IMG/VR virus record: IMGVR_UViG_3300047678_000242
Location: 1 to 43,795 of that record
DNA: 43,795 nt
Strand: one strand, 5' to 3'
Source of the DNA: a virus
Each line of letters opens with the position of its first letter. Positions within the stretch are counted from its first letter, which is position 1. The notes under the pieces were generated by a model. The model did not search any database, had not been told where the DNA came from, and saw only the letters and a list, made by a program, of their open reading frames with translations. This document shows, one piece after another, positions 1,584-42,302 of this stretch. Both the position numbers and the translations under genes were made by a program.

Positions 1584-1615
1584 GTTTCGCCAGAATGGCG
1601 AAACAGTTTCGCCAT
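1584..1615. repeat. GTTTCGCCA arm-like repeats, left end
   Basis: GTTTCGCCA at 1584-1592, its inverse TGGCGAAAC at 1596-1604 (a 9-bp inverted repeat with a 3-nt centre) and GTTTCGCCAT at 1606-1615. The same 9-mer appears twice near the right end. This position relative to att is what is expected of arm-type integrase or excisionase sites. Confidence 0.6.
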
Positions 1616-2073
1616 CAGGACGATTGTGCGGCCCAGGCCGAGCGCATTTGTTCGTCATCAGGCCGGCCCGCCAGCCAGTGCGCATAGGCCGGCCCGTCGA
1701 ACGCCGCCAGGTCTGCCAGTGGCTCGGTGGCTACCAGCTCGGCCATCACCGAGCAGTGCGGACGCCAAAGCCACGGCTCGCGTCCCGCCAGGCTCATCCA
1801 ATCCTCCACCCGGCTGTACCACACCAGCGCGATGCCGATCGGCTCGCCATGGGCCGCCTGCGCGTCTTGGATGGCCGCACGCGCGGTCTGGAGCGCCTGC
1901 GCGCGCCATTCCACTAGCTGGACCATCCGGTCAGCCACGTCGGCCGGCACCTGGCGTTGGCCGGACTCCCATAGATTCCACGCCCGCTCGGACGCCTCGC
2001 CGACGAGCGCTGCCGCCTCCGGGCGCGAGAAAAACAAAAGGCGCCGTAGCGCCTCCAGCTCGATGCCGGTCAT
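1615..2073 (-). CDS. YdiL/DUF1870-family regulator, Aca2-like
   Basis: 152 aa. Residues 1-55 (MTGIELEALRRLLFFSRPEA, then an ERAWNLWESGQRQVPADVAD stretch) match the helix-turn-helix pattern of the YdiL/DUF1870 family: an ELQALR-type first helix, then a W-x-x-W-E-x-G core and a P-x-D-V turn. Anti-CRISPR-associated Aca2 repressors belong to this family. The later part (VEDWMSLAGREPWLWRPHCS, then a MAELVA stretch) also aligns with the family's second half. A ~25-residue C-terminal tail is extra relative to typical 115-125 aa members. It starts directly after the stop of the upstream 102-aa gene, so the pair is translationally linked. Expected role: autorepression of the operon from the palindrome at 2435-2452. 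Family match is fairly sure; the Aca role is inferred. Confidence 0.7.
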   Translation of the reverse strand: MTGIELEALRRLLFFSRPEAAALVGEASERAWNLWESGQRQVPADVADRMVQLVEWRAQALQTARAAIQDAQAAHGEPIGIALVWYSRVEDWMSLAGREPWLWRPHCSVMAELVATEPLADLAAFDGPAYAHWLAGRPDDEQMRSAWAAQSS

Positions 2074-2382
2074 CTAGATCTCGATCTCGAAATGTGCCCC
2101 GCCGATGTTGCTCCAGCCCGCGAAAGCGGCCTGATGGCCAGCACGCTCGGCTTCTTCCCACCGATCAATGATGGCGCAGTCCAAAAATGACGATCCTGCG
2201 GGCAGTGGAGATTCACCGTAGTGAGTGAAAACGCGCATGTAATCGGCGTAAGCCTGGGCCACTTTGCCCTCTCCGCCAAGGGCGGCCTCAAGCGCTTCGC
2301 AAAAACGTTCGGTGGCGGCCTGCCGCTCGTCGGCGGTGACGCCGCGCAGATTGGTGAGGGTGGCGCTGTAGGTGGTGGTCAT
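2074..2382 (-). CDS. Unknown 102-aa protein; candidate anti-CRISPR
   Basis: No family is recognised. The protein is small and acidic (ends GAHFEIEI), with a helical first half (VTADERQAATERFCEALEAA) and no membrane segment or signal. A GGGAG ribosome site lies 6 nt before ATG. It is the first gene of a two-gene operon whose second gene is an Aca2-like regulator abutting it without a gap. In known loci, small unrelated proteins in exactly this place are anti-CRISPRs. The operon sits alone between attL and the integrase, a usual place for accessory genes, and has its own promoter. The function is inference from position only. Confidence 0.5.
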   Translation of the reverse strand: MTTTYSATLTNLRGVTADERQAATERFCEALEAALGGEGKVAQAYADYMRVFTHYGESPLPAGSSFLDCAIIDRWEEAERAGHQAAFAGWSNIGGAHFEIEI

Positions 2383-2430
2383 GCTGATCTCCCGGGGAGG
2401 TCGGTCTGCACTATTGCTGACCGTGAAATC

Positions 2431-2459
2431 ATTATGTTCCGAATTCGGAACAATGTCAA
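2431..2459 (-). promoter_or_regulatory. Promoter with embedded 18-bp palindromic operator
   Basis: Read on the minus strand: TTGACA (2454-2459), exactly 17 nt, then CATAAT (2431-2436). The perfect palindrome TGTTCCGAATTCGGAACA (2435-2452) fills the spacer and touches the -10 box, so a bound dimer would exclude RNA polymerase. It drives the 102-aa gene and the Aca2-like gene, and the latter is the natural candidate repressor. Confidence 0.75.
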
Positions 2460-2496: not shown

Positions 2497-3579
2497 TTAG
2501 CTTTTACGTCTCAACGCACTAACCCGCTCCCCCCGCCGCTCCCGCACATAGTCGGCCGTCATGGCCTCTGTGCTGTGCCCGAGCAGCTTTCGCGCGCTGG
2601 CCATCGACTCGCTGTCGGTGGCGGTCTTGGCGCGCAGATCCCGCAGCTGGAACCGTGTCCACGGTTCGCCCTTCGACAGCGCCTCGGCCTCGGCCGCTGC
2701 CCGTGCTTTGTCGAACTGGCTGCGAAAATACCCGAACTGTTTCAACGGCTGGCCCGACGGGTCGGCCACGATCGTCATGCCCACCACGCCGCGCGCGCGG
2801 ATGCGCTCCAACAGCGTGGCCAGCTCGCCGGCCACCTCGATGCGCAGCTTCGCGCGCGTCTTGCCCTGCTGCACCTCCAGCGCGCCCTCGCGAATGTGGT
2901 CCCAGCGCATCTTGCGCACGTCGGCGGGGCGCTGGCCGGTGAGGTAAGCCAGGTCGAGCACGTCGCGCACCACCGGCCCGGCGTGCTTGTACACGCGCGC
3001 CAGGTCGGCGTCGCTGACGTAAATGTCGCGCGACTCGTTCACCTTCATCTGCCGCAGGATGCCGGCCAGCGGATTCGGCGCTGTCATGTAGCCGCGCGCA
3101 CGTGCCCAATTGCACACCACCGACAGGTACTTGAGTTCCTTCTTGCCCGTCACCTGGCTGGAGCGGTCGTCGAAATAGCGCAGCATGTGCTCGGGCCGCA
3201 GCGCGTCGATGGTGGCGGCGCCGAACACCGGCTCCAGCTTGGCCCAGTACTTGGCCCGGTCAGCCAGCGTGCGCACCGATAGGCCGCTTTTCGCGCGATT
3301 CTCGGCCCATTTGAGGTACCGAGCGTGCACGCCCGTCACCGAGCGCTCGTCGGCCGCCAGCGGCGCCTCGGCGCGCGGCTTGCCCTCGAGCGCGGCCCAC
3401 TGGATTTTGGCCTGCGTGAGATCCGAGCCCAGCGGCGTGAGCTTACGTTTGCCAGCGGCGTCGCGCGGGTGCTCGTAGAAGAAATACTCGCGCACCACCC
3501 CGCGCCTGGTCGTGCGCGATCGGCGCACCATGCGGCGCGGTAGGTCGGAGTGGGCGAGTTTGGGCGCGGCCATCGGCAT
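2497..3579 (-). CDS. int: Phage tyrosine-recombinase integrase
   Basis: 360 aa. The N-terminal ~60 residues are basic and arm-binding-like. A core-binding domain follows, then the catalytic domain: Arg in YLTGQRPADVRKMRW, an L-R-D-L-R-A box (Arg in place of the more common His of HxxR), KLLGHS with its His, and the nucleophile Tyr in MTADYVRERRG near the C-terminus. It catalyses recombination between the 47-bp tRNA-Cys core and the bacterial site. It is the last gene of the long leftward operon, 1 nt after the DUF4224 gene. The start is the first ATG; a second ATG two codons later is possible. Confidence 0.93.
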   Translation of the reverse strand: MPMAAPKLAHSDLPRRMVRRSRTTRRGVVREYFFYEHPRDAAGKRKLTPLGSDLTQAKIQWAALEGKPRAEAPLAADERSVTGVHARYLKWAENRAKSGLSVRTLADRAKYWAKLEPVFGAATIDALRPEHMLRYFDDRSSQVTGKKELKYLSVVCNWARARGYMTAPNPLAGILRQMKVNESRDIYVSDADLARVYKHAGPVVRDVLDLAYLTGQRPADVRKMRWDHIREGALEVQQGKTRAKLRIEVAGELATLLERIRARGVVGMTIVADPSGQPLKQFGYFRSQFDKARAAAEAEALSKGEPWTRFQLRDLRAKTATDSESMASARKLLGHSTEAMTADYVRERRGERVSALRRKS

Positions 3580-3580
3580 A

Positions 3581-3802
3581 TCATGCCACCTTATCGAAAG
3601 CGGGGAAGGTCACTCCCTGCTGGCCGTTCGTCGGGTCGACGCCTGCCAGCTTCATGCGCACATACCAGCGGCCCACAATGGGCTCTCCGGCGGCGTTCAG
3701 GGTGTAATGCCACCGCACGGCGTTCAGCCACTCGATGATCGCGCCTTTATGATGTCGGCCGGCGATCTCGCGCAGCTCGTCTTGAGTGAGGGCTTCGGTC
3801 AT
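3581..3802 (-). CDS. DUF4224 family protein, possible excisionase/integration accessory
   Basis: 73 aa. The opening LTQDELREIAGRHHKGAIIE, then the WLNAVRWHYTLNAAGEPIVG stretch fits the DUF4224 pattern (LT-x-x-E-L, a helix-turn-helix-like segment, then G-x-P-x-V). Such proteins commonly precede phage integrases. It ends 1 nt before the integrase start and overlaps the reverse transcriptase stop by 4 nt, so it is co-translated with both. A directionality-factor role is plausible from position but is not shown by sequence. Confidence 0.7.
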   Translation of the reverse strand: MTEALTQDELREIAGRHHKGAIIEWLNAVRWHYTLNAAGEPIVGRWYVRMKLAGVDPTNGQQGVTFPAFDKVA

Positions 3803-5202
3803 GTCCGATACGCCTTGGTGAGATCAGCATCAACGCAATGCCCACGCGCCCGCACCAAGTTCGCCAGCCGCGCCCGGTCGACGTGGCTGGCCGGCACCTG
3901 ACGCAGAAGGCCGAAGTAGCTGTTGGCCGATGTGAAGACATCCTCGGCCGGCATGGTGGCCAGGCGCTGCAGGCCGGCACGCACGGTGCGCCGGCGGGTG
4001 GTGTGGTGCCATGGCTTGATCAGGTGGCCAACGAAGTCCACGCCGCGCTCGATCGGCTGCAGGATGGTCTTGCGCGGGTTGAGCTGCAGGTGCAGCTCGC
4101 GCGGCAACCAGGTGGTGATGTCGGCCAGCCAGGCGTTGAGCTGCTGGGGCGACTCGTGCAACAGGATGAAGTCGTCGACGTACCGGATGTAATGACGCAC
4201 CTGCAGGCGGTGCTTGACGTGCTGGTCGAGCGCATCGAGCAGCACGTTGGCGAAGAACTGGCTGCTCAGGTTCCCGATCGGCAGGCCATGGTCAGCGGAC
4301 TGAGATCTCAAGCGCTTGTGCGGCGGTACCAGTGCGAGCTGGCGGGCACGGCTCTGCAGGTGCACGTCGGGCCGGGGATCGTGAAACAGGATCGTCTCGG
4401 CCAGATCCATCCACCATGGCTCATGGATGCGCCTGGCCAGCAGGCCGCGCAGGATGGCCTTGTCGATCGAGACAAAGAAGTTGGCCAGGTCGCACTTGAG
4501 GTACCACGCCGGCCTGCGCCAGTTGGCAGTGATCGAGCGGATTTTCGCGGCCAGGCGGTTGCCGGCGTACAGCGTGCCGCGGCCGGGAATGCAAGCGCAC
4601 GAGTCAGCAATGAATCCCGCGTGGAAGCGCGGCGCGACGTGGTTGTACAGCAGGTGGTGCACGATGCGGTCGACGAACGGTGCGGCCCACACTTCGCGTG
4701 GCTTCGGCCGGGTGATGACAAAGCAGATTGAGCGGCCGGGCGCGTAAGTGCGGTCCTGCAAGGATTGATACAGCCGCCACAAGTTGGCCTCCTGGTGCGC
4801 CTCGAAGGCGCGCGCGGAGGGCGTCGTGCGCTTGTGCTGCCGACAATCAATGTAGGCCTGCACAAGGGTGCTGAAAGAAAAAGCAGCATGGGAAGAAGGC
4901 GCTTTCGTCTGCGGACGAGCACCACCGGATACTCGTTGTCCTTGTGGTTGTTGTTCTGGTTGCCGTTGTTGAAGCTCTGCAGCCAGGCCCACGAGTCGTT
5001 GCCGGCGTTCTGCGTCGATCACACTATCCACGTCGTCCGGCCGAAGATCCGGAGTGCGATCGATCAGCGGGGAAACTGCGCCGGACGCGGCCTGGCCAGA
5101 GAACAGCGAAAGCTGGCCAGCGGTATCCGTGGTGCGCATGTCGGTGGCCACCTCATTTTCCAATGCGGTGGCCAGCGGTGTGACCAGATGAAAATCAGGC
5201 AC
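3799..5202 (-). CDS. Diversity-generating retroelement reverse transcriptase
   Basis: Copies the template-repeat RNA into adenine-mutagenised cDNA that replaces the variable repeats. Motifs counted from the GTG at 5202: motif A Asp in YLKCDLANFFVSID (~238), the DGR-type motif 4 GLPIGNLSSQ (IGxxxSQ rather than QGxxxSP, ~306-315) and catalytic YVDD (341-344), then a thumb with HLQLNPRKT. The conserved RT fold begins near residue ~108 (FSFSTLVQAY, ~4880). The frame before that runs through the template repeat (residues ~62-100). The GTG at 5202 overlaps the avd stop by 8 nt, which suits translational coupling. The only later start before the RT core is a GTG at 4863 without a clear ribosome site. 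The RT identity is secure; the N-terminus is uncertain. Confidence 0.92.
   Translation of the reverse strand: MPDFHLVTPLATALENEVATDMRTTDTAGQLSLFSGQAASGAVSPLIDRTPDLRPDDVDSVIDAERRQRLVGLAAELQQRQPEQQPQGQRVSGGARPQTKAPSSHAAFSFSTLVQAYIDCRQHKRTTPSARAFEAHQEANLWRLYQSLQDRTYAPGRSICFVITRPKPREVWAAPFVDRIVHHLLYNHVAPRFHAGFIADSCACIPGRGTLYAGNRLAAKIRSITANWRRPAWYLKCDLANFFVSIDKAILRGLLARRIHEPWWMDLAETILFHDPRPDVHLQSRARQLALVPPHKRLRSQSADHGLPIGNLSSQFFANVLLDALDQHVKHRLQVRHYIRYVDDFILLHESPQQLNAWLADITTWLPRELHLQLNPRKTILQPIERGVDFVGHLIKPWHHTTRRRTVRAGLQRLATMPAEDVFTSANSYFGLLRQVPASHVDRARLANLVRARGHCVDADLTKAYRT
4908..5018 (-). repeat. DGR template repeat (TR)
   Basis: On the minus strand this segment matches the ends of both target genes but carries nine AAC codons at the variable positions (QNAGNDSW, then FNNGNQNNNHKDNEYP in the target frame). 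Compared with VR1 it differs at 10 sites and compared with VR2 at 7 sites; every one is an A in TR on the RT-coding strand. It lies between avd and the RT core, the usual TR place, but here also inside the extended RT reading frame. Confidence 0.95.
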
Positions 5203-5599
5203 GGCCAGGATCGCCTTGACGGTCCTGGAACAGACCCGGTTGCTGGGGTGCGCCCCGTTCCTTCTCCGACCGCCGCCACCCGTTGGCCTGCATGCCGATC
5301 GACTGGGTGCGGCCGATGATCCTGGCGTAGTGGGCCGGCGGGATGTAGCGCTGGTCCCGGCAGATCCGCGTCAGGAGTTCGATCACTTCCAGCCGCTCCA
5401 GGAGCTGCAGCAGGTGCGGCTCTTTCTCCTGCGCCATGTTGGCCGCGCGGACGTGGAGGTCAAGCTCGATGCAGGCGTCGATGATCTTCTCGCCGAAAAC
5501 GCGCTTGGCGTCCCGGCGCATGTTCAAGATCACGTCACCCGCTGCGCTCAGCAGGTCATAGCAGTCTGCGTAAATATCGAGGGCGGTGTGGAGAGCCAT
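5195..5599 (-). CDS. avd: DGR accessory variability determinant (Avd)
   Basis: 134 aa, mostly helical. The pattern (IYADCYDLLSAAGDVILNMR ... FGEKIIDACIELDLHVRAAN ... ERLEVIELLTRICRDQRYIP) is that of the Avd four-helix bundle, related to 23S rRNA intervening-sequence proteins. The last ~20 residues look disordered. Avd forms a basic pentamer that binds the RT and the TR RNA and is needed for mutagenic homing. It stands between the VR1 target gene (36 nt upstream) and the TR/RT, the canonical DGR order. Confidence 0.9.
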   Translation of the reverse strand: MALHTALDIYADCYDLLSAAGDVILNMRRDAKRVFGEKIIDACIELDLHVRAANMAQEKEPHLLQLLERLEVIELLTRICRDQRYIPPAHYARIIGRTQSIGMQANGWRRSEKERGAPQQPGLFQDRQGDPGRA

Positions 5600-5635
5600 G
5601 CTGCGAAAAGCCTCAAAAATTATCGAATGAACGAA

Positions 5636-6151
5636 TCAGCGAATGGGTACTCTGCGGACGAGCACCACCGGATACTCGTCGTCCTTGTGGTTGAGGTGCT
5701 GGTAGCCGTCGTAGAAGCTCTGCAGCCAGGCCCACGAGTCGAGGCCGGCGTCCTGCGTCGAGGTCCAGTGCCATTCCTTCTGGTAAGCGTCTGAACAGTT
5801 CGCGAAAGCGATGCGAGCCTCCCGGCGCGAGGCGATGTAGTAGTCGCGGTGCCCCTCGCACTCGACCAGGGTGGCGCGGCTGGCGATCTCGCTGCCGGCA
5901 TCGCGCATGGCCAGCGTGTTGGCCATGCCGTCGAATTCACTCTCCGCGGCCTTGACGTTCTTGAGCGGACCCCATTTGCCCTTGATGAAAATGCCGGGCG
6001 GTTTCACCAGGCAGTAATCAGGCTGGCCGGGCAGGCCCTTGACGATGCCCAGCAACACGCCGCCCTGGCCAGGCCACTCGGCGCCTATCCGCGGCGTGAT
6101 CATCCGCTCGACATTTTCCGGCCGCTGCGCGGCGGGTTTTGCTCGTGCCAT
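5636..6151 (-). CDS. DGR target protein 1 (C-type-lectin-like, variable C-terminus)
   Basis: 171 aa from the ATG at 6151, which has an AAGGAG site 6 nt upstream. A short N-terminal part leads into a DUF1566/formylglycine-enzyme-like C-type lectin fold (AMRDAGSEIA ... HRDYYIASRREARIAF ... EWHWTSTQDAG). The C-terminal ~37 residues are VR1 (LDSWAWLQSFYDGYQHLNHK, then DDEYPVVLVRR). It is clearly a paralogue of the next target gene (TLAMRDAGSEIA versus TVAMAEAGSEVA). No signal peptide, lipobox or tail-protein domain is visible, so its location and ligand are unknown. Upstream in-frame codons overlap the neighbouring gene's VR and are not needed. Confidence 0.88.
   Translation of the reverse strand: MARAKPAAQRPENVERMITPRIGAEWPGQGGVLLGIVKGLPGQPDYCLVKPPGIFIKGKWGPLKNVKAAESEFDGMANTLAMRDAGSEIASRATLVECEGHRDYYIASRREARIAFANCSDAYQKEWHWTSTQDAGLDSWAWLQSFYDGYQHLNHKDDEYPVVLVRRVPIR
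5651..5761 (-). repeat. DGR variable repeat 1 (VR1)
   Basis: Aligns without gaps to TR 4908-5018. It has ten substitutions, at the sites matching TR 4937, 4951, 4952, 4955, 4961, 4967, 4970, 4999, 5000 and 5009, all at TR adenines. Eight of nine AAC codons are changed (to Asp, Leu, Tyr, Asp, Tyr, His, Leu, Asp). The GC-rich 3' end of the repeat (initiation-of-homing side) is unchanged. Confidence 0.95.
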
Positions 6152-6182
6152 GAAATGCTCCTTCAATGATCGAATGGGTGAA

Positions 6183-6803
6183 TTAGCCGATGACCACTCT
6201 GCGGACGAGCACCACCGGATACTCGTTGTCCTCGTGGGTGTCGTTCTGGTCGCCGTTGCTGAAGCGCTGCAGCCAGGCCCACGAGTCGTGGCCGGCGTTC
6301 TGCGTGGAGGTCCAGTACCACGCGGCCTCGAGCGCTTCGGCACCGCCCTCGCGGAAGGCCTCCACGGTGGTCTGTGCGGGCAGATCCGGCGTGTAAGGCG
6401 CGGTGGGCGGGCAGGCGTTCAGGTTGATGCCGGCGCGTGCATAGCAGTCGTTCTTGCGCGTGGTGGGCTTGAGGTTGCGATACACCAGCTCCATCTCGTC
6501 GATGGCGGGGATGTACCAGTCGGCGTGGCCGGCGATGCTCCTGGCCAGCGCCCACTTGGCGACTTCACTGCCGGCTTCGGCCATGGCCACGGTGTTGAGC
6601 CAGCCGTCGTGATAGCTCAGGGCGCCGGTGACCGTCTTGGTCGACTGATTCCAGGCGGTGGGGGCGTGGCGCCCTTCGGCCTTGGGCGCCAGGATGATGG
6701 CGTGCACATTGCCGTTGATGGCGACCTGGCCGGCGAAGAAGCCGCCTTCGAAGGGCGAGCCGATGGCGGGGGTGTCGATGGTGCGGGGTGCGGGTGCGTT
6801 CAT
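6183..6803 (-). CDS. DGR target protein 2 (DUF1566/C-type-lectin-like, variable C-terminus)
   Basis: 206 aa with an AGGAG site before ATG. The N-terminal ~60 residues contain a beta-rich segment (GGFFAGQVAINGNVHAIILA). The C-type lectin-like region follows (TVAMAEAGSEVAKWALARSI ... ADWYIPAIDEMELVYRNLKP ... AAWYWTSTQNAG) and ends in VR2 (HDSWAWLQRFSNGDQNDTHE, then DNEYPVVLVRR). The WTSTQ ... W-A-W ... YPVVLVRR frame is the usual scaffold around displayed variable residues. It lies 29 nt after the ParB-like gene, in the same leftward operon. No export signal or virion-attachment domain is seen, which is unusual for a phage DGR target. Confidence 0.9.
   Translation of the reverse strand: MNAPAPRTIDTPAIGSPFEGGFFAGQVAINGNVHAIILAPKAEGRHAPTAWNQSTKTVTGALSYHDGWLNTVAMAEAGSEVAKWALARSIAGHADWYIPAIDEMELVYRNLKPTTRKNDCYARAGINLNACPPTAPYTPDLPAQTTVEAFREGGAEALEAAWYWTSTQNAGHDSWAWLQRFSNGDQNDTHEDNEYPVVLVRRVVIG
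6198..6305 (-). repeat. DGR variable repeat 2 (VR2)
   Basis: Aligns without gaps to TR 4908-5015 with seven substitutions (TR 4943, 4948, 4952, 4961, 4969, 4976, 5000), all at adenines of the RT-coding strand. The changes give Asn to His, Ser to Arg, Asn to Ser, Asn to Asp (twice), Asn to Thr and Lys to Glu. Confidence 0.95.
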
Positions 6804-6832: not shown

Positions 6833-8782
6833 TTAAGTCGCGCTGGCCAGCAGCGCGTCAGCTTCGGTGGGCTCGTCGACGGCGGGATCAACGGGCTCGG
6901 GTGTGGCGCGCGACTTCTTCGCCTGCGCGGTCTTGCCGGGTTTTTCGTCTTCTGATCGGGCCGCGACAGCGGCCTTCTTCTTCTGTTTAGAGCCGTTCGC
7001 CTTTGCTTCCCCGACCGCTTTTGCCAGCGCAGCCCCGACAGCGGGTTGCGCTGTAGCCGCCGCCTTGGTGCGCGCTTGCGCAGCGGGTTTAGGGGTGGAA
7101 GCCCTTTTCTTCGCAGGCGCCATGATGAGTCGACGCATTCCGGCAAAGTCCACATCGGCGCGCGCCGCGGCTTCGTGCAGATCCTCGGGCGGTTTGTTGT
7201 TGTAGGTGTTCACAAAGCATGTGCCCACCAGCGCGCAAGCCACCATGAAGCCGCCCAGTTCGGCGCCATCCATCGCGGCCAGCTTTGCCTTGGCCTGGTC
7301 GAAGTTCTCGAACTTGCCGAGATCCTTGTCCCACTCCAGTACCTCGCAGAGCCTTCGCCGGCTGTCGCTGCCGGCGTCGTGCCACATCGCATTCGCCAGG
7401 AGCAGCAAGGTGTCGAAGTCGAGCGGGATCGTCTTGATCGTCGCCCGCAGAATGGCGATGCGCGCCTCGCTTTCAAGCCGCGCTTTCTTCTCTGCAGAAC
7501 GGGCCTTGTCCAGGTGCTCATCGCCGCTGCTGCGCGAATCCATCAGGCCCTTGGCCCTGAGCAGGCGCTTCGTGGCCTCCACGTCGACCATTTCGCGCAC
7601 CTGCTTGTTGAACGGGTTCTCGATCAGCGTGATCGGCACCTCGTCGCCCAGCGTTTTCTTGAGGTCGATCTCCTTGCTGCCGGTCCAGAACTTCTGGCCA
7701 GCAGCCTGGTAACCGTCGATATGGCTGCTGTGCTCGTACTTGACCAGCTTCTTCGCTTCGGCGCCGGCGATCACCTTGGTGCCCTCTGTCTTCGCGGCCA
7801 GGATCAGCCGGGCGCTGTGAGCCTCGGTCTTGGCGCGGTAGCATAGCGGGTCGGTACACATGTCCGGGCCCTGCACGTCGTGGAACAGATCCCGTGCCGC
7901 ATGCGTGCGTTTCGGGCACGGGCCGCACGGGCCCGCGATCGGGATCACGGCGCTCGAGGCGTTCTTGTTGTTCGACGGTGGCCGCATGTAGTCGGCCGCC
8001 TTGATGTCGAACGGCGCCTTGGCGATCGGCAGCATGTAGTGCTCGCGCACGTGCTTCGCGGCCTCGCGCGCCGACATCGGCTCATCCTGGTTGTTCCACT
8101 TGCCGTGGATGATTTCCTTCATCGCCTGCGGCTGCAGGTCGTGCGGGATGCGGGCGATCAGCAGCGCGGTGCTGGCCGTGAGCTGGTCGGCGAAGAAAGC
8201 ATCGCGGCATTCGGTGCGCAGGTCGTTCAGCTTGAGCCGGGCATAGATGGTCTCCTTGCTCACGCCCACCTCCTCGGCCAACTGGTCGACCGTGAAGCCA
8301 TGGTCGCGGATCATCGCGGCGTAACCCTGCGCCTCCTCGAGCTCGTGCAGATCGTCGCGCTGCAGGTTCTCGATGGTCTGGATGCGCAGCACATCGATGT
8401 TCGACAGCGCGCGCACCAGTGCCGGGATGTGCGTGCGGCCGGCGATCATGCTGGCCCGGTACCGCCGCTCCCCGGCGACGATCTCGTACATGGTGGCGCC
8501 ATCGTTCATGGCCGCGATGACGGCTGCCTTGCGGCTGTTGTGGCCGCCGTGGTCGATCTGGTATGCCAGGCGCGCTTCGCCCACCAGTGGCCGCACCAGG
8601 ATCGGCTGCAACACGCCTTGTGCCTTGATGGTGGCGGCCAGTTCGGCCAGCGTCTCCTCGTTGAAACGCTTGCGCGGGTTGGTGGGCGAGGGCACCAGGG
8701 CCTCAATGGCGAGATCGGCGAACGACTGCTCGATTTTGAGCGGGGCCGGCGCGATCTCGGCGGGTGTGGTGGGTGCGTTCAT
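6833..8782 (-). CDS. ParB/RepB/Spo0J-family DNA-binding protein
   Basis: 649 aa, longer than chromosomal ParB. The ParB N-terminal fold spans ~24-145, with an insertion of about 30 residues at ~67-97, the CTP-binding box GERRYRA (104-110) and ENLQR (138-142). A helix-turn-helix follows (FTVDQLAEEVGVSKETIYAR, 163-182). A Cys-rich segment near 295-330 (CGPCPKRT ... DMCTDPLCY) may bind zinc. The C-terminal ~110 residues are Ala/Lys-rich and probably disordered. No ParA is encoded in the prophage, so a partition role alone is doubtful. A copy of the TGCARACGTNTGCA palindrome lies in its own leader. It may be a DNA-loading or regulatory clamp for phage DNA. Confidence 0.85.
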   Translation of the reverse strand: MNAPTTPAEIAPAPLKIEQSFADLAIEALVPSPTNPRKRFNEETLAELAATIKAQGVLQPILVRPLVGEARLAYQIDHGGHNSRKAAVIAAMNDGATMYEIVAGERRYRASMIAGRTHIPALVRALSNIDVLRIQTIENLQRDDLHELEEAQGYAAMIRDHGFTVDQLAEEVGVSKETIYARLKLNDLRTECRDAFFADQLTASTALLIARIPHDLQPQAMKEIIHGKWNNQDEPMSAREAAKHVREHYMLPIAKAPFDIKAADYMRPPSNNKNASSAVIPIAGPCGPCPKRTHAARDLFHDVQGPDMCTDPLCYRAKTEAHSARLILAAKTEGTKVIAGAEAKKLVKYEHSSHIDGYQAAGQKFWTGSKEIDLKKTLGDEVPITLIENPFNKQVREMVDVEATKRLLRAKGLMDSRSSGDEHLDKARSAEKKARLESEARIAILRATIKTIPLDFDTLLLLANAMWHDAGSDSRRRLCEVLEWDKDLGKFENFDQAKAKLAAMDGAELGGFMVACALVGTCFVNTYNNKPPEDLHEAAARADVDFAGMRRLIMAPAKKRASTPKPAAQARTKAAATAQPAVGAALAKAVGEAKANGSKQKKKAAVAARSEDEKPGKTAQAKKSRATPEPVDPAVDEPTEADALLASAT

Positions 8783-12167: not shown

Positions 12168-12554
12168 TCACGCGGCCTGTTGATCGTCCGGTGATTGTGA
12201 GTTGATCAACGTCAACGCCATGTTTTCAATAGCCGCTCTCTGGGTGTCGTTCATTTGCTCCATGGCCTTGAGCACGGTGGCGGCGGTCTTCGAGGTGGCG
12301 TAGGTCCGAATCTTGGGCGGCGTACCGAACTCCAGCCAGGCGGGGTCGTGCGACGTGAGCTGCGACACGATCACCAGGTGCCTGCCTTCGAGGTCATCGG
12401 TCTGGCCGTTGAGCCACTTATAGACGGCCTGAACGCTGACGCCGCACTCTTGCGCGGCTGTGCTGACGGAGGTGCCGCTATCGTCGAAAGCTGCCTTGAG
12501 GCGTAGCGCGAGAGTGTCCATGAAAGTGAGCATAGCGGACAGGGTTTCAACCAT
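12168..12554 (-). CDS. CI-like repressor (short XRE-type, no peptidase domain)
   Basis: 128 aa. A helix-turn-helix near residues 29-52 (VSTAAQECGVSVQAVYKWLN, then GQTDDLEGRHL) is typical of phage repressors. A helical C-terminal part (KTAATVLKAMEQMNDTQRAA) may dimerise. It lacks the LexA/CI-type autocleavage domain, so induction would need another mechanism. ATG 12554, with AAAGGA 8 nt upstream, lies inside an operator. It faces the Cro-like gene across the paired operators and probably represses both early promoters. A later Met (MDTLALRLKAAF) is an alternative start. Confidence 0.8.
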   Translation of the reverse strand: MVETLSAMLTFMDTLALRLKAAFDDSGTSVSTAAQECGVSVQAVYKWLNGQTDDLEGRHLVIVSQLTSHDPAWLEFGTPPKIRTYATSKTAATVLKAMEQMNDTQRAAIENMALTLINSQSPDDQQAA

Positions 12555-17438: not shown

Positions 17439-17513
17439 CGCGGGGTAGCCAAGCGGAAAGGCGCCGGCCTCATAAGCCGGCCATCGTGGGTTCGATTCCC
17501 ACCCCCGCAACCA
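17439..17513 (+). tRNA. Phage tRNA-Met (CAT), initiator-like acceptor stem
   Basis: A 75-nt cloverleaf with anticodon CAT (17471-17473), T-arm GTGGGTTCGATTCCCAC and encoded CCA. The acceptor is CGCGGGG / CCCCGCA followed by ACCA, so the first pair is a C1-A72 mismatch, the hallmark of initiator tRNA-fMet. However, the anticodon stem is CCGGC/GCCGG, not ending in three G-C pairs, and the D-stem has C11-G24, both elongator-like. It stands between the early terminator and the late genes. Confidence 0.9.
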
Positions 17514-38098: not shown

Positions 38099-39007
38099 AT
38101 GACAGTGCAGACGTTCACGCAGCCGGACTACGCCGGCGGCACGCAGACCGGCTCGGTCTACCCGACCAACATCGACAAGGCCATCGCCGTCATGGCGCCG
38201 ATCGCGGCAGCCTTCGCGCCGCACGCGACCGCGACGCCAGGCATGACCCTGCAGGTCGACGCGGGCGTGCTCTTCGTGGCCAACGCCATGGTGACGCAGG
38301 CGCAGCAGACCACTGGCGCGATCGCCGCGGCGGCCAGCGGCAAGGTCCGTATCGATCGCGTGGTCATCGACGCCAGCACCGGCGCGGTCAGCGTGATCAC
38401 CGGCGCGGAGGTTGTCAGCAGCCCGGTGGCGCCCACCATCCCGGTGGGCAAACTGCCGATCTGCCAGGTGGGCAACATCGGCAGCGCGACCACTGCGCTG
38501 ACCAACAGCATGATCACCGACGAGCGAGTCGGCGCCGGTGCCGGCAGCAGTGGCCTGCCGGCCGGCACTGTGGTGCACGTGGCGCAGAACACCGCGCCCA
38601 GCGGGTTCGTCAAGGCCAATGGGGCAGCGATCTCGCGCACCACCTACGCGACGTTATTCGCGGCGATCGGCACCACCTACGGCGTGGGCGATGGGTCCAC
38701 CACCTTCAACGTGCCGGACCTGCGCGGCGAGTTCGTGCGCGGCTGGGATGACAGCCGGGGCGTGGACAGTGGTCGCGCCATCGCCAGCAGCCAGACCGAT
38801 GCCTTCCAGGGCCACTGGCACGAACTGCGTGCCGATGGCACTGGCGCCGGCAGTGGTGGCGGCTACATGGGCCTGCAGTCAGGCGGCTCAAGCCTGATGG
38901 CGCAGGCGGTCAAGGCGCCCAACAGTGACGGTACCAACGGCACGCCACGCACGGCGGCGGAAACCCGGCCGCGCAACGTCGCGCTGCTGGCCTGTATCAA
39001 GTACTAG
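38099..39007 (+). CDS. Tail fibre with collar domain
   Basis: 302 aa. An N-terminal beta region with AVTxx-type repeats is followed by the phage tail collar domain (NTAPSGFVKANGAAISRTTY, then ATLFAAIGTTYGVGDGSTTF), NVPDLRGEFVRGWDDSRG and a Gly-rich tip with QGHWHEL, ending RPRNVALLACIKY. The H-x-H motif suits metal binding in the tip. It carries no copy of the DGR variable repeat, although such collar/tip proteins are common DGR targets elsewhere. Confidence 0.88.
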   Translation: MTVQTFTQPDYAGGTQTGSVYPTNIDKAIAVMAPIAAAFAPHATATPGMTLQVDAGVLFVANAMVTQAQQTTGAIAAAASGKVRIDRVVIDASTGAVSVITGAEVVSSPVAPTIPVGKLPICQVGNIGSATTALTNSMITDERVGAGAGSSGLPAGTVVHVAQNTAPSGFVKANGAAISRTTYATLFAAIGTTYGVGDGSTTFNVPDLRGEFVRGWDDSRGVDSGRAIASSQTDAFQGHWHELRADGTGAGSGGGYMGLQSGGSSLMAQAVKAPNSDGTNGTPRTAAETRPRNVALLACIKY

Positions 39008-42255: not shown

Positions 42256-42302
42256 GGCCTGCAAAGCCGTGTACGCCGGTTCGATTCCGGCCTCCGCCTC
42301 CA
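42256..42302 (+). repeat. attR core (tRNA-Cys 3' fragment)
   Basis: 47 bp identical to the 3' part of tRNA-Cys (1501-1547), without the 5' half, so it is not a functional tRNA. It marks the right end of the prophage. Confidence 0.95.

Follow-up and report, generated by a model that had tools for sequence, protein, structure and literature searches.

A diversity-generating retroelement in the leftward operon of a prophage and its temperate-phage clade, with stand-alone lectin-type targets that may act inside the cell

The window analysed in this paper is the whole of the IMG/VR virus record IMGVR_UViG_3300047678_000242, a 43,795-bp stretch containing a prophage. It carries a diversity-generating retroelement (DGR), composed of a reverse transcriptase (RT), the protein Avd, a template repeat (TR) and two target genes bearing variable repeats (VRs). 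As claimed in an earlier note made from the letters of the DNA, all of these parts lie in one leftward cassette on the minus strand, at 3799-6803. The RT core (3799-4914) matches phrog_1423 (E 2.8e-112), is 64% identical to the RT of Burkholderia phage Magia and resembles the RT structure of phage BPP-1 (8ub7, E 1.2e-36); the DGR-type motifs IGNLSSQ and YVDD, also named in the note, were confirmed in its translation. Avd (134 amino acids, 5195-5599) was recognised by phrog_3206 (E 1.4e-25) and, slightly below the cut-off, by Pfam bAvd (E 4.4e-9). The TR (4907-5017) is the sole full-length source repeat, and both VRs carry A-directed mismatches to it. VR1 (6197-6307) lies in target 1 (T1) and VR2 (5650-5760) in target 2 (T2). 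Over the whole repeat, 77/79 and 78/79 non-A positions, respectively, are identical to the TR. Within the 110-bp core, all 10 mismatches of VR2 fall at TR adenines (Fisher p=1.4e-6), as do 7 of the 8 in VR1 (p=6.7e-4), giving 17/18 for both VRs pooled. The DGR is thus confirmed as real and complete, and its intact parts suggest that it is active in this prophage. A scan of the whole window with the TR pattern returned the TR and the two VRs only, with zero matches in the tail genes; therefore, no tail gene is a target. Padloc models gave generic RT matches for the RT and no match for either target.

Both targets are short, stand-alone proteins encoded on the minus strand. T1 (206 amino acids, 6183-6803), with a C-terminal VR, belongs to the Lcl_C/DUF1566 family according to Pfam Lcl_C (E 1.9e-11), phrog_4245 (E 6.7e-31) and the family alignment. 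T2 (171 amino acids, 5636-6151) is Lcl_C-like, with a match to phrog_4245 (E 6.1e-22) and a weak one to Pfam Lcl_C, below the cut-off. DUF1566 is a common target domain of DGRs (PMC6642488). The AF2 model of T2 has a pLDDT of 93, and its best PDB match is the C-terminal domain of Legionella pneumophila Lcl (8q4e; TM-score 0.66 on the target), the closest solved fold, followed by C-type lectins. Lcl is a bacterial surface protein, unlike an early phage protein. In a viral structure library, T2 matched small DUF1566 proteins, D3 Orf68 and the lectin ends of tail-like proteins. The model of T1 has a pLDDT of 80, falling below 50 in the VR region, and its fold search gave no usable match. Of the two C-type-lectin-like targets named in the earlier note, T2 is thus predicted to have the C-type-lectin fold by its model, while T1 was left without a fold match; its lectin-type assignment is supported by the Lcl_C match and by the homology of T1-type and T2-type proteins in profile comparison (hhalign probability 99.9).

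The targets of related loci are likewise stand-alone proteins of about 115-220 amino acids. Sequence-based analysis agreed with the note in detecting no virion or export domain in the targets, and it detected no membrane feature either; no transmembrane-like or signal-like stretch was present in the clade targets, and all short targets are without a trimerisation stalk, collagen or baseplate domain. Three targets with a hydrophobic window above 1.6 were considered as membrane proteins and rejected, the stretch being the conserved GGFYAG core rather than a signal or membrane segment. A longer protein was observed at locus L032, a sister DGR with an RT 47% identical: its 679-amino-acid target (L032:3349-5388) combines a long N-terminal repeat region with the same C-terminal lectin domain and is possibly a tail-type relative.

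Searches with the RT recovered 37 viral and 5 bacterial loci, together with isolated phages; when the T1 alignment was then used as the query, 80 loci were recovered. In total, more than 80 related loci were found, among them the isolated temperate phages Magia, Haboob, LPPA56, Cruim01 and QDWS. The gene order of targets, Avd, TR and RT is common to nearly every locus with enough sequence, and each locus has one to three targets, with the DGR in a leftward repressor–recombination–integrase block and never next to any tail gene that could be detected. Across 82 TR/VR pairs from 39 loci, 1047/1085 mismatches fall at TR adenines; in 43 further loci the count is 1114/1164, and 37 of these 43 have exactly two VRs. 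Among the 80 T1 loci, the RT is on the same strand in 63, most of the remainder being short on that side. An integrase shares the strand in 22 loci and faces the other way in 3, and 12 loci have a same-strand repressor; tail queries, which can miss very divergent tail proteins, matched none. Five annotated temperate phages have the DGR between their repressor/recombination genes and the integrase and, wherever tail genes fall within the stretch shown for these phages, they are encoded on the other strand. The commonest PHROG matches of 111 flanking proteins were integrase, repressor, RecE/RecT/Bet and ParB, and no tail family was present among the first 25 matches. The recurring virion-structural family phrog_19855 was set aside, as it matched RecE nucleases in the cases opened. 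The early operon read in the earlier note is supported, as an early or lysogeny operon, and this placement of the DGR recurs across the clade; the view that this locus alone is unusual was overstated, the arrangement being typical of the whole clade. Magia and Cruim01 were also observed to carry an extra VR-bearing target several kb upstream of the DGR, near the immunity repressor gene (L046:5761-6141, L050:10287-10886). Searching plasmids with the DGR region of Cruim01 gave no match.

Comparison of close relatives reveals natural activity. Over 7.4 kb, loci L017 and L018 differ at no more than 14 sites, and L027 and L030 likewise differ at just 14 over 10.5 kb; in each pair, all of these sites are TR-adenine positions in one VR. 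Between L098 and L107, the VRs differ at 36 adenine sites and 1 other, against 11/8425 sites elsewhere. Between the phages Haboob and phPA-G, all 25 of 25 VR differences are at TR adenines, compared with 0/105 sites in the TR and 66/2846 other sites. Several other pairs are identical throughout, some being one contig entered twice. These comparisons show recent diversification in close clade members.

Target genes are also found apart from the DGR. The first Haboob target has homologues in 42 Pseudomonas phage records, mostly with no RT match, and many P. aeruginosa phages keep such RT-less copies. One is orf68 of phage D3, the first gene after cI, which is homologous to the target (L051:5968-6528); another orphan (L056:3033-3524) lies in the terminal-repeat region of the jumbo phage PA5oct and is not listed in PMC6950013. 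In D3, U9, D14O and PA5oct, the VR differences from Haboob are mostly at TR-adenine positions, with counts of 15/19 in D3 and 19/20 in PA5oct. No DGR RT was detected with D3 orf68 and its homologues, and they are presumably no longer diversified in cis. By their substitution pattern, the orphans look like alleles formerly diversified by a DGR and then retained without one, and this retention suggests that the function of the targets is independent of ongoing mutation.

The setting of the cassette in the prophage is as follows. Host DNA flanks the prophage, and a perfect 47-bp attachment (att) repeat at 1501-1547 (+; attL core, the 3' part of a tRNA-Cys gene) and 42256-42302 (+; attR core) places the prophage ends there. 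The minus-strand block contains, in order, genes for a helix-turn-helix (HTH) repressor-like protein, an SNase, a ParB-like protein, T1, T2, Avd, the TR, the RT, an excisionase-like protein and the integrase. The repressor-like gene at the head of the block (12168-12554, -) was assigned from weak HTH matches and the strand organisation. The ParB-like protein (6833-8782, -; Pfam ParB_N E 1e-25 and HTH_ParB) is upstream of T1 in the same operon; a DUF4224/excisionase-like gene (3581-3802, -; phrog_4764 excisionase, E 5.7e-20) is downstream of the RT, followed by the tyrosine integrase (2497-3579, -; Pfam PF00589, phrog_1). The plus strand encodes a VapE-type primase, terminase, portal, capsid, tape measure, tail and lysis proteins. 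The distance of more than 30 kb from the tail genes stressed in the earlier note is correct on the linear prophage map; it does not survive excision. With the tail-fibre gene ending at 39007 and attR at 42302, only about 5.5 kb separates that gene from the end of the RT (3799) on the excised circle, with lysis genes, att and the integrase in between. As an argument, distance from the tail was overstated. Transcription is a stronger one, as the cassette belongs to the leftward block and the tail genes are on the opposite strand.

Two further features of the prophage were observed. A tRNA-Met gene (17439-17513, +) lies between the replication and packaging genes. A candidate anti-CRISPR operon lies at 1615-2459 (-), with a near-perfect sigma-70-type promoter (TTGACA-17-CATAAT) containing a perfect palindrome, TTCCGAATTCGGAA, between the hexamers. 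Its first open reading frame (102 amino acids, 2074-2382) is without known relatives, and its second gene (1615-2073) encodes an Aca2/YdiL-like HTH protein.

The non-coding parts of the cassette have a distinctive organisation. An RT-15 structured RNA (RF03018; 5012-5239, -; cmscan 133 bits, E 2.4e-31) runs up to the 5' end of the TR. It likewise extends up to the TR in 8/8 other clade members tested, and it was not found in the outgroup L032. Its location directly 5' of the TR suggests a role for the orphan RNA family RT-15. Directly after each VR, and spanning the stop codon, is an array of octamers with A/C-T-T every 8 bp. The array 3' of VR1 (6160-6183, -) reads ATTCACCC ATTCGATC ATTGAAGG and that 3' of VR2 (5613-5644, -) reads ATTCGCTG ATTCGTTC ATTCGATA ATTTTTGA. 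At least 3 consecutive units are present in 62/75 clade VRs, versus 0.2 expected, and in 1/36 TRs; in a second set, the array follows 70/86 VRs. A GC-rich hairpin with a GRNA loop has been proposed as a conserved DGR requirement (PMC3240598). Such a hairpin was found downstream of 0/74 clade VRs, both VRs of this prophage included; it was found in the outgroup loci L034, L035, L039 and L040, and other GC hairpins were found in some clade members (18/74). It can be seen that the octamer array stands in place of the GRNA-loop hairpin of other phage DGRs.

The homology of the RT starts at the 3' end of the TR, and the RT-15 RNA sits 5' of it. In this prophage, the RT frame stays open upstream through the TR, to 5202 or beyond (4907-5202, -); it is open through the TR in 38/39 loci, and 19/39 have no in-frame ATG, GTG or TTG between the TR and the RT core. 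Because the frame is open and about half of the loci lack a normal start codon, the TR may be part of the RT coding sequence. A coding explanation for the conserved stretch upstream of the TR was rejected: the counts of synonymous and non-synonymous changes are 60/21 in the RT frame, versus 63/17 and 60/18 in the other frames. In the absence of a coding signal in that frame, an RNA-level reason is preferred for its conservation.

Compared with the BPP-1 system (mtd-avd-brt), the parts are the same: an RT (about 30% identical), Avd, a TR, a C-terminal VR, adenine mutagenesis and a target of the C-type-lectin fold. The differences concern the use and the nucleic-acid signals. BPP-1 targets a tail protein, whereas the two targets here appear to belong to an early operon and to lack tail domains, with no VR in the tail genes. 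BPP-1 has a structured RNA spacer 3' of the TR (PMC12875486), whereas the RT-15 RNA here is 5' of it, and BPP-1 has a hairpin/cruciform after its VR (PMC3240598), whereas the octamer array without a GRNA hairpin is found here. A close and already described relative is Magia (gp44-gp47, gp57), with short lectin-fold targets in a repressor-to-integrase block. The announcement of that phage (PMC7883833) records a DGR with gp47 and gp57 as short target open reading frames, and it makes no inference about a clade, the operon or RNA; a further VR was found in Magia gp46 in the present scan. The isolated temperate Pseudomonas phages Haboob, phPA-G, LPPA56 and Cruim01 and the Shewanella phage QDWS share the cassette and its position, while their RTs are 58-64% identical and their targets are mostly annotated as hypothetical. 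A DGR with short target open reading frames is thus already known in Magia, and the clade-wide early-operon arrangement goes beyond that announcement. Within the literature searched, with subscription papers and supplements outside it, no description was found of this clade with its early operon, of the octamer array or of the connection to RT-15.

The best explanation, with a probability of roughly 0.68, is that a temperate-phage clade has a functional DGR for the mutation of two stand-alone lectin-fold (DUF1566/Lcl_C) proteins of the leftward operon, and that these are most likely intracellular variable binders rather than tail receptor-binding proteins. Following general DGR biology, the RT and Avd would copy the TR RNA with random bases placed opposite adenines, and the cDNA would replace a single VR at a time, giving each phage lineage its own binding surface. 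As a speculation, the recombination genes in the same block might aid cDNA uptake. The targets would be made early or in the lysogen and would work within the cell, during infection or lysogeny, to neutralise a variety of factors of the host or of rival phages; the binding surface could be used for counter-defence, host takeover or exclusion. Several points weigh against this explanation. The same lectin domain is fused to tail-like proteins elsewhere and ends the long protein of the sister locus L032. The tail queries have a limited sensitivity, and very divergent tail proteins could escape them. Small size and the lack of a virion domain are still compatible with a minor part of the virion. 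Finally, where a role has been assigned to phage DGR targets, most are tail proteins, a global survey having described the viral targets of three clades in this way, among many unknowns (PMC8144416).

Of the specific roles, the most plausible, though still held tentatively, is one in early lytic growth, with the targets serving in counter-defence or host takeover, made on infection or induction and varied to match diverse host proteins. The leftward early block is shared with RecT/RecE/Bet, ParB and methyltransferase genes, and the orphan copy in the terminal-repeat region of PA5oct also fits such a role, but the targets are without a known counter-defence homologue. The same jumbo phage speaks against a second and rather unlikely role, in which the lysogen makes the targets for superinfection exclusion or defence, as a variable repertoire binding proteins or DNA of incoming phages; the PA5oct homologue is outside any lysogeny module, and the targets match no defence model. 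Even so, the operon begins at the repressor, the extra targets of Magia and Cruim01 lie beside the repressor gene, fast change of rival phages would reward a DGR, and a general proposal of this kind exists for cellular DGRs (PMC10053308).

It is improbable that the targets are virion components, encoded outside the tail module as minor proteins of the tail tip or as ejected proteins, with the DGR varying host attachment as in BPP-1. The role known for most phage DGRs whose targets have been assigned (PMC8144416), the occurrence of the same fold in tail-fibre-like proteins and the short distance to the tail-fibre gene on the circular map are in agreement with this idea. It conflicts with the early-operon position in every annotated relative, with homologues located directly after cI in D3 and remote from tail genes, and with short targets devoid of stalk, collagen or baseplate domains. 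A decaying or inactive cassette with old VR differences is very improbable: no near-identical relative of this exact prophage was present in the data examined, yet RT, Avd, TR and targets are intact, VR differences fall cleanly at adenines, and close clade members are active.

The reading of the targets as intracellular variable binders may be extended further, in a proposal to which we give slightly less than even odds. A widespread temperate-phage clade with a structurally distinct DGR, marked by the 5' RT-15 RNA and the octamer target array, would evolve intracellular non-virion binders, an antibody-like repertoire against host-defence or rival-phage proteins, whose alleles spread to phages that lack an RT, a jumbo phage among them. 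A different marking of target sites and a different organisation of the template RNA are suggested by the octamer array and by the RT-15 RNA beside the TR. Phage DGRs with an assigned role have been understood mainly as diversifiers of host attachment, and this clade raises the possibility that targeted hypermutation is put to another use. Non-tail DGR targets thereby become directly testable in the cultured phages Haboob, LPPA56 and Magia.

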